A model generated the notes under the pieces. That model was not told the DNA's origin, made no database searches, and saw only the letters and a program-made list of their open reading frames with translations. Below are positions 57,306 through 63,396 of a stretch of DNA of 64,000 bases, piece after piece (within the stretch, counting starts at the first letter, position 1; every line of letters begins with the position of its first letter). This DNA is from Fimbriimonas ginsengisoli Gsoil 348. GTDB lineage: Bacteria; Armatimonadota; Fimbriimonadia; Fimbriimonadales; Fimbriimonadaceae. Location: assembly GCF_000724625.1 (NCBI RefSeq), contig NZ_CP007139.1, forward strand, positions 4,960,001 through 5,024,000. The letters run 5' to 3'. The translations under genes were made by a program, and so were the position numbers.

Positions 57306-57400
57306 TCAACTGTGGCGTGTGGCTTGTGAACTGATGAGAAGATGAGATCTACGGGACACCTGAGACCCATGCGACCTAGATGTCCCATCTGTCCCATGGT
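57306..57400. repeat. GTGGACTGTGGC-family repeat with CCCAT half
   Basis: AACTGTGGCGTGTGGCTTGTG (57307) and ATGTCCCATCTGTCCCATGG (57379) frame GAGATCTACGGGACACCTGAGACCCATG. The family's copies are at 12413, 59522 and 63240. The rest of 57239-57452 shows nothing else except a GGCGTTGAGGCGGATTCGCCTCAAC hairpin near 57288. Confidence 0.65.
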
Positions 57401-59521: not shown

Positions 59522-59620
59522 ATGTGGACTGTGGCTTGTCGCTTGTGGACTGATGGGATTTCTGGGAGTCATGCATCCAGAAATCTCATCCGCCGATTCT
59601 GGCCCCAACACCGTAACACC
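59522..59620. repeat. GTGGACTGTGGC-family repeat with AACACCGTAACACCGC tail
   Basis: ATGTGGACTGTGGCTTGTCG (59522) and a GGGATTTCTGG/CCAGAAATC inverted pair (59556-59587), then CCAACACCGTAACACCGCAGCC near 59605. The same tail occurs near 63378. Confidence 0.6.
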
Positions 59621-59630
59621 GCAGCCTCTT

Positions 59631-61640
59631 TCACTCATTTGCCCACCTATTAATCAGCCACCAATTGGCTTGGTCGTGGGGCATGAATTTGGGGTGGGTT
59701 AGGGTTTCGAACGACGGCAGGTAGCCGAGGGCGCCGTCGCCGTACTCCTTGACTCGTCGAACGACGATCTCCACGTGCCGTTGGGCCACCTGACACCGCT
59801 CGATGTCGGCAAGCGACCCCCCGATTCGATAGTTCGTCCCCTTGGCGATCTTGGCCAGGTTTTCGAAAACCTGGCGGCAATACATGAGCGAGGCCGCGGC
59901 TTGCCCTGGAAGCCCCGCCGCGTACAGCTTGTGCGCCTCCTCCGCGTAACGCACGAACTCGATTGCCAGTTTGGCGAACTCGCTCACCCCTCGGTAGGCG
60001 CTATCCGGCGCCACCGCGATCGCGCGCTCCAAGATCGCCAATGCCTTGTCGCCTACCTCGCCGCAAAGCTCTTCTGAGTGGTGCAGCCAGAAAAGAAACG
60101 GGTTCGAAAACAGCAGTAGCCTCGCCTTCATCGATGACCGAATACCGCTAAAAGCAAACATGCCGCCCGCGTTCTGAAGCTCCGATCCCATCAACCGCGC
60201 CCATTCCTCGTGGGTCTCCCCCACCTCTAGGTAAGCGCGAAGGAAGTGAGTCGCTTCCCGAAGAGCTCCATATTGGACATGATTCGCCCTTGGCGGCGTT
60301 CGAAGCTCCATTGTCACGCCGTTTGGATTCACCACCCATTGAGCTTGGATTTCGAATGGCACTCCTTTGTAAATCCCTTTAAGGACACCGTTCCGATTTG
60401 TGTGTTGGCGAAGCGGATCCATATCCGCCATTAGGGCGAGCCTGTTCAGTGTGGAAGTTGCTTGCTCCTTTGGCAATCTCCCCGTTTCCTGCTCACTCCC
60501 TTCCGCGCCAAAACCTATGAGGTACATCTCCTGCCCCGCGGGATAAATTCTTGCAAATGTAGTCCCTGATTGTAGGAAGCTCATGATGATGGCGTCGCTA
60601 ATGCCTACTCCAATGGAGAGGAGCCCGCCGGAGTTAACTTCTTCGCCAAGCTGCCGATTCGGCAGGAAATGGGGCATTGCGTAGGGTCGATAGAGGGGAC
60701 CTCTTCCGTCACCATCAAGAGGCTCCTCCGCGAGTCGGAGCATCTTTCCCGCCGCCCGAATCGCGGGCAAGAGGGTTTCGTAGTTCCCAAACAGCCCGCA
60801 TTCCCACGTCGTAACGCACACTCCGTAAGCGGACTTATCCTTCGATGCCGCGGCCAGCGCGTGCTCACGCACGTTTTCCTCGCTCTGCGGCAAGTGAAGC
60901 CATGCCGCGTTGTACGTATGCAGTGCCGGCGAGTAAACCACGTCGAAGCCACGGCGATGGAAGATCGAGCTGCTGAATTCCGGCCCCCGGAAATACTGCC
61001 AATCGAAGATCAGCGTCCCTTCGGGAATCAGATCCAGCGCCGTCGGGTGATCGAAGAACATGTCGCCCCAGATCGCCGGACGACGGCCCGCCTTCGCCAC
61101 CTTGCGCAGCAGCGGTCCGAAGTGCGATCCGTAGAGTTGTGCCTTACCGTCCACCCCCGCCGTCATCTCGTACTCGCGAACCGTCTTCGCGCACTCCGGA
61201 CAGAGACCCAGTTGCCACGTTTCGTCTCCCCCGATGTGGATGATGTCGCTTGTGAAGATCCCCAGGATGTCGTCGACGAGCTGATTGGCGAGCTCCACAA
61301 ACGCGGGCCGGCACGGGCATGCTTGCATCCCTTTGAACTTCTCTTCCGCGTATCGGCGACCGGCCTCGGTGTAGAGCATCCCCTCGAAGTGGCCCAGCAG
61401 ATTGATGAACGGGATGATCTGCAGGTCGGAAAACTCCGCCTGGAGGGCAAGCACCATCTCGGGCGTCACGCACCCGCGCCCATGAGACCACGGCGTGCTC
61501 GGATAGGCAAACCGGTGCTCCATGTACAACCCGATCGCGTTATAGCCGGCCTCTCGCGTTAACGCGCAGAAGGCGCGAAGATGATCGAGAGTCGGCGATT
61601 GCTCGCGCGCCAAGTCGTACGTCCACATGCGAAGGTGCAT
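59631..61640 (-). CDS. GH20-like beta-N-acetylhexosaminidase with inserted GspE/PilB-N1-like segment
   Basis: A 669-residue cytoplasmic glycoside-hydrolase-like protein without a signal peptide. Residues 1-305 fit a GH20 TIM barrel: HIGGDE at 135-140 holds the Asp-Glu catalytic pair (Asp139/Glu140), and TTWECGLFGNYETLLPAI ends the barrel. Residues about 460-669 are a helical C-terminal region (WARLMGSELQNAGGMFAFSGIRSS). Between them, residues about 312-455 do not fit GH20: ISDAIIMSFLQSGTTFARIYP, LNRLALMADMDPLRQHTNRNGVL and NPNGVTMELRTP follow the order of the N1E domain of GspE/PilB. This stretch (about 60278-60707) has GC near 53% by my rough count, against about 60% in the flanks. Confidence 0.75.
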   Translation of the reverse strand: MHLRMWTYDLAREQSPTLDHLRAFCALTREAGYNAIGLYMEHRFAYPSTPWSHGRGCVTPEMVLALQAEFSDLQIIPFINLLGHFEGMLYTEAGRRYAEEKFKGMQACPCRPAFVELANQLVDDILGIFTSDIIHIGGDETWQLGLCPECAKTVREYEMTAGVDGKAQLYGSHFGPLLRKVAKAGRRPAIWGDMFFDHPTALDLIPEGTLIFDWQYFRGPEFSSSIFHRRGFDVVYSPALHTYNAAWLHLPQSEENVREHALAAASKDKSAYGVCVTTWECGLFGNYETLLPAIRAAGKMLRLAEEPLDGDGRGPLYRPYAMPHFLPNRQLGEEVNSGGLLSIGVGISDAIIMSFLQSGTTFARIYPAGQEMYLIGFGAEGSEQETGRLPKEQATSTLNRLALMADMDPLRQHTNRNGVLKGIYKGVPFEIQAQWVVNPNGVTMELRTPPRANHVQYGALREATHFLRAYLEVGETHEEWARLMGSELQNAGGMFAFSGIRSSMKARLLLFSNPFLFWLHHSEELCGEVGDKALAILERAIAVAPDSAYRGVSEFAKLAIEFVRYAEEAHKLYAAGLPGQAAASLMYCRQVFENLAKIAKGTNYRIGGSLADIERCQVAQRHVEIVVRRVKEYGDGALGYLPSFETLTHPKFMPHDQANWWLINRWANE

Positions 61641-63239: not shown

Positions 63240-63396
63240 GTGTGGACTGTGGCGTGTGGCTTGTGGACTGATGGAAGCAAAAGAACCATGTGACCCACAA
63301 GTCCCATCCGTCCCATCAAAAGAGGTAAAGCCTCAAACTAACTACGCCCAACGCCCAACGCCCAACGCCCAACGCCCAACACCGCAACACCGCAAC
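63240..63396. repeat. GTGGACTGTGGC-family repeat joined to CGCCCAA heptamers
   Basis: GTGTGGACTGTGGCGTGTGG (63240) and a GTCCCATCCGTCCCATC half (63301). Then five CGCCCAA heptamers (63345-63379) and two CACCGCAA-type units up to 63396. The nucleotidyltransferase ATG follows after 3 bases, so its leader is repeat DNA without a recognisable ribosome binding site. Confidence 0.8.

Follow-up and report, generated by a model that had tools for sequence, protein, structure and literature searches.

The GH20C-like glycoside hydrolase P0001 of Fimbriimonas ginsengisoli Gsoil 348 houses a divergent N2 domain of a T4P/T2S extension ATPase, fused in frame into the linker between its catalytic barrel and its helical domain. 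This domain was most likely captured once, early in Fimbriimonadaceae, and would then have been lost repeatedly, in several lineages. The gene lies in the window (the whole stretch of DNA analysed here, 64,000 nucleotides of contig NZ_CP007139.1), part of a genome that consists of a single contig of 5.23 Mb. To our knowledge, the N2 domain of pilus and secretion motors does not normally occur except as one half of an ATPase, packing on and sensing a neighbouring ATPase domain. A detached N2 with eroded motor residues in an apparently active enzyme shows that the fold can be detached and reused, and the natural pairs of enzymes with and without it make the effect of the captured domain directly measurable. 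The domain and the enzyme both belong to known families; their combination places a known domain in a new host, stripped of the motor residues that define it. A literature search of partial coverage, without a domain-architecture database, found no paper on an N2-in-GH20 architecture.

The reading frame of P0001 is unbroken over 669 residues (Table 1). A Pfam scan placed Glyco_hydro_20 (PF00728) at residues 100–270 (E 8e-13) and returned nothing else, with no match to an ATPase domain, and the whole protein had no match in NCBIfam. The best structural matches of the full-length model were GH20 enzymes, including GH20C over both domains. Like GH20C of Streptococcus pneumoniae and GcnA of S. gordonii, P0001 combines a TIM barrel with a C-terminal helical domain (about 475 residues matched), although it is only about 15% identical to them; we know of no insert between barrel and helical domain in GH20C or GcnA. 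The Asp139–Glu140 pair is present in all 76 orthologues, insert-bearing or insert-less, and from this intact pair P0001 is apparently an active, GH20C-like hexosaminidase. Direct reading of its sequence revealed no obvious signal peptide, so the enzyme is probably cytoplasmic.

Table 1 Parts of the insert-bearing GH20-like gene, in window coordinates.
Feature	Position	Strand	Basis
GH20-like gene, host of the insert (P0001, 669 aa)	59631..61640	-	Pfam and fold matches
Catalytic TIM barrel, residues 1–303	60732..61640	-	Pfam and fold; aligns throughout all orthologues
Asp139–Glu140, GH20 catalytic pair in HIGGDE	61221..61226	-	Invariant in orthologues
Flexible tether between barrel and insert, residues 304–336	60633..60731	-	Low pLDDT; missing or shortened in orthologues without the insert
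Inserted N2-type domain of PilB/GspE ATPases, residues 337–450	60291..60632	-	Sequence, profile, fold
Short linker to C-terminal domain, residues 451–463	60252..60290	-	Orthologue alignment and full-length model
C-terminal helical domain as in GH20C, residues 464–669	59634..60251	-	Alignment, model, fold matches

The initial annotation had described a GH20-like gene interrupted in frame by about 140 codons, with flanks that join as in normal GH20-like proteins. Alignment with orthologues confirmed both points: P0001 carries an extra in-frame stretch of about 150 residues (~304–454; window ~60279–60731), and the residues on either side align with insert-less orthologues. In the alignment with orthologues of the genus, the insertion site falls after the final helix of the barrel and before the helical domain. 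An insert-type segment occurs in 8 of about 72 Fimbriimonadaceae orthologues, namely in the window's genome, three congeneric ones and a single genome from each of four further genera (G020, G027, G058 and G064). The remaining ~64 are the same enzyme, about 45–70% identical to P0001 in both domains, but instead of an N2-type domain they have a short linker, from a few to about 30 residues long; the segment is thus absent from most close homologues, as that annotation had supposed. The genomes compared were mostly labelled Armatimonadetes, Fimbriimonas or Fimbriimonadaceae. Because most orthologues of the family and all five orthologues examined from the outgroup family f2 are free of the insert, insertion is the derived state. 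A suspected frameshift in the G020 gene was rejected: the gap consists of N characters in the scaffold, and the gene is not broken.

By sequence profile and predicted fold, the insert is a divergent N2 (PAS-like) domain, homologous to that of PilB/GspE ATPases and forming a separate globular unit at residues 337–450. A search of the window's own genome with P0001 matched residues 337–442 to an N1-less PilB/GspE-type ATPase (E 5e-8). When compared with the PDB, a profile built from the eight inserts, with no ATPase included, matched PilB 3jc8 (E 9e-10) and GspE 1p9r (E 4e-8) in the N2 domain. Profile scores were at most 7.3 bits for 1,600 shuffled inserts against 42 for real inserts; the shuffled inserts and the fold match together reject a chance resemblance to secretion ATPases. 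The link to the T2SSE family needs a profile, because the window's 114-aa insert alone had no match in Pfam and Pfam T2SSE matched four of nine sequences examined, one of them being a true ATPase.

Structure prediction agrees with this assignment. Modelled alone with AlphaFold2, from an input of only three sequences, the insert reached pLDDT 86.5 and pTM 0.80, as expected of a separate globular domain, and its secondary structure runs H-E-E-E-H-E-E-E (alpha-beta-beta-beta-alpha-beta-beta-beta). All 26 Foldseek matches of this model at E <= 0.001 were PilF, PilB, GspE or BfpD (TMq up to 0.81). Structural alignment gave Z 18.0 and rmsd 1.6 over 109 residues with the N2 of Thermus PilF, Z 16.6 with PilB and 16.0 with GspE (14–17 among PilB/GspE structures), compared with 10.8 for PilT, 7–9 for other secretion and archaeal ATPases and <5 for unrelated proteins. 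The matches to PilB and GspE align to N2 residues, for example 180–289 of GmPilB. Homology to an N-terminal domain of secretion ATPases, which the initial annotation had proposed, is therefore upheld by both profile and fold (Z 16–18), but its N1 label is wrong, and an N1/MshEN identity is rejected, because profile and structural matches fall on N2; the PilB/GspE motifs that it had aligned by eye were read correctly and are those of N2. The N-terminal domain of this ATPase family has been termed PAS-like (PMC6153414). With the N2 of PilB, PilF and GspE (the N-terminal part of Pfam T2SSE, PF00437), the insert shares fold, element order and sequence profile; unlike these proteins, it comes without an ATPase domain and without N1 and is housed inside a glycoside hydrolase. 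The rest of P0001 is barrel and helical domain, and a RecA-like ATPase domain with Walker A is absent.

The insert also differs from a motor N2 in having lost ASDIH-type residues and arginine fingers. All 43 ATPases of the family that were compared share the ASDIHxxP and RxRxDG residues, an E-R-QD stretch and later arginines without exception; motor-type residues are scattered or gone in the inserts, with Arg400, Gly418 and the hydrophobic pattern kept and Gly422 and Phe429 present in all eight. GmPilB uses Arg286 to contact the phosphates of the nucleotide, and Arg257 and Arg271 to contact the glutamate of the ASP box in the neighbouring packing unit (PMC5424180). The equivalents of Arg257, Arg271 and Arg286, assigned by reading alignments to residues 419, 432 and 447, respectively, are fixed in 43/43 ATPases and kept in 3/8, 1/8 and 1/8 inserts; of the three, the window's insert retains Arg447 alone. 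With its arginine fingers mostly lost, the insert is homologous to the domain without being a functional motor N2, and, since nucleotide sensing in motors needs both an ATPase domain and arginine fingers, such a role is unlikely on sequence grounds.

No longer sensing nucleotide, the insert would act as a tethered accessory module on the predicted active enzyme, laid out as about 40 disordered residues (pLDDT about 25–40 over tether residues 304–336 in the full-length model), a compact PAS-like domain and then the helical domain. It would most likely make protein contacts, by self-association or with a partner, or space the two enzyme domains, and would be dispensable for the enzyme's basic predicted activity. 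We hold this adaptor role tentatively, at a little under even chances, and infer that spacing or protein contacts are the likeliest uses, with a passenger as a close rival and docking to a pilus motor as a weak one. A passenger that folds, does no harm, has no selected function and drifts until it is deleted would suit the very fast divergence, which fits near-neutral persistence, as well as the repeated absence in sister lineages, the loss of most ATPase-specific residues and the flexible tether. However, the insert is open and in frame with a recognizable N2 core pattern in eight lineages, the one insert modelled folds confidently, and a functionless domain of 110 aa should break sooner over such divergence; we regard a passenger as a serious possibility that falls well below an even chance. 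It is quite improbable that the insert docks the enzyme onto a pilus or secretion motor, whether by replacing N2 in the hexamer or by binding the C-terminal domain of an ATPase. Docking would draw on the homology to motor N2, on the packing in motors of the N2 of one chain on the next chain's C-terminal domain (PMC5424180) and on the short or PilB-type ATPases encoded in every carrier genome, yet most residues fixed in the ATPases compared, among them the arginines extending to the adjacent chain, are gone, and the inserts differ strongly from each other.

The insert evolves much faster than its host enzyme, with 14–36% identity among inserts versus 53–73% among hosts. In leave-one-out comparisons, the best-scoring profile for each insert is that built from the remaining seven; the inserts form one group in a tree with ATPases (support 91/89), as they do in the best tree for a wider set; and the shared Gly422 is not among the residues listed for ATPases at that column. 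By our own count, one capture placed on the rooted host tree would have to be followed by about six losses. Two of five splits are common to the insert tree and the host tree (P about 0.05), which makes their congruence suggestive only, and the trees are weak because the branches are very long. A single early capture with losses is favoured, not proved.

The competing account has two independent captures at the same linker, with clade A (the window's genome, G003, G013, G016 and G020) taking its insert from the N1-less short ATPase and clade B (G027, G058 and G064) from a long PilB/GspE. By profile scores, most clade-A inserts, including the window's, are nearer to the short ATPase (short versus long, 42.0 versus 15.4 bits for G000 and 30.5 versus 6.1 for G020), and clade-B inserts are nearer to the long PilB-type N2 (10.5 versus 37.8 for G058, 6.3 versus 32.5 for G064 and 0.3 versus 17.8 for G027), but G013 prefers neither donor. 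The first-helix motif likewise divides into SxxxGIxD, as in short ATPases, and APxxRLA, as in long ones. Both ATPase types are present in families f2 and f3, so the split between them predates Fimbriimonadaceae. A tree joining clade A to short and clade B to long ATPases beat the free tree by 2.8 log units in one set and was not rejected (AU p 0.58; 0.42 in the wider set), but in the wider set two captures came out 4–7 log units worse than insert monophyly. Against them also stand the leave-one-out scores, which favour other inserts, and the Gly422 and insertion site common to all eight. On balance we consider two captures rather unlikely and the favoured single capture the better account. A linker that had captured N2 twice from two ATPase paralogues would point to an adaptor free of ATP being useful there, a conclusion that we think unlikely to hold.

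Base composition had suggested a segment poorer in GC (about 53%) than its flanks (about 60%), and that rough count was accurate: residues 329–450 have a GC of 53.0% and a GC3 of 55.7%, as against 61.6% and 78.7% for residues 1–305 and 60.0% and 73.8% for residues 456–669 (GC3 of insert versus flanks, Fisher p 4.6e-6). Recent horizontal import of foreign DNA could be read from this dip (GC3 0.56 versus 0.77–0.79 in the window's gene) and from a similar one in G020. However, the other six of the eight carriers have no dip, so it is not a mark of recent foreign DNA and that reading is rejected; the inserts are, moreover, deeply diverged from each other and from all ATPases found, and we judge recent import highly improbable. 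The dip says little about where the segment came from; a fast-evolving segment under weaker codon selection would look no different, and the case cautions that a composition dip at an insert need not imply recent foreign DNA. The suggestion of a mobile domain finds no backing either. Six N2 matches in the window's genome comprise five full ATPases and the GH20-like gene, and spread of the domain across many proteins is unsupported in relatives, where other N2 matches were judged by frame length only and the two of odd length that were fetched proved to be ATPases.

The closest sequence relative of the window's insert is the short, N1-less PilB/GspE-type ATPase of Fimbriimonadales, at about 31–34% identity; unlike the insert, it is a complete ATPase, of which the insert corresponds to no more than the first ~110 conserved residues. 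In the window's genome it is encoded at 3836372–3837493 on the minus strand (L002/L038; a 449-aa open frame) and has Walker A and a tetracysteine motif. Nearly every Fimbriimonadales genome searched, including those of f2 and f3, has this ATPase (about 425 aa; relatives L123–L149), which is about 70–85% conserved within the family. A separate 817-aa frame, L175 (G006:C76), encodes a protein with N2 and an ATPase domain in which Walker A is altered (GPAESGRT) and a long N-terminal region is acidic.

Several insert-less relatives carry a long PilB-type gene ~5 kb from the GH20-like gene (G011, contig C118; G014, C30; G048, G045, G062 and G025, C1 in each). Near the GH20-like gene of the window's genome there is no long T2SSE gene. 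Local rearrangement involving such an adjoining gene may have given rise to the fusion.

The window also contains a dispersed intergenic repeat, CTGTGGCGTGTGGCTTGTG(A/G)ACTGATG, at 57310–57336, 59529–59555 and 63247–63273 on the plus strand; its 19-base core has 12 copies genome-wide, compared with 0 for a reversed control.
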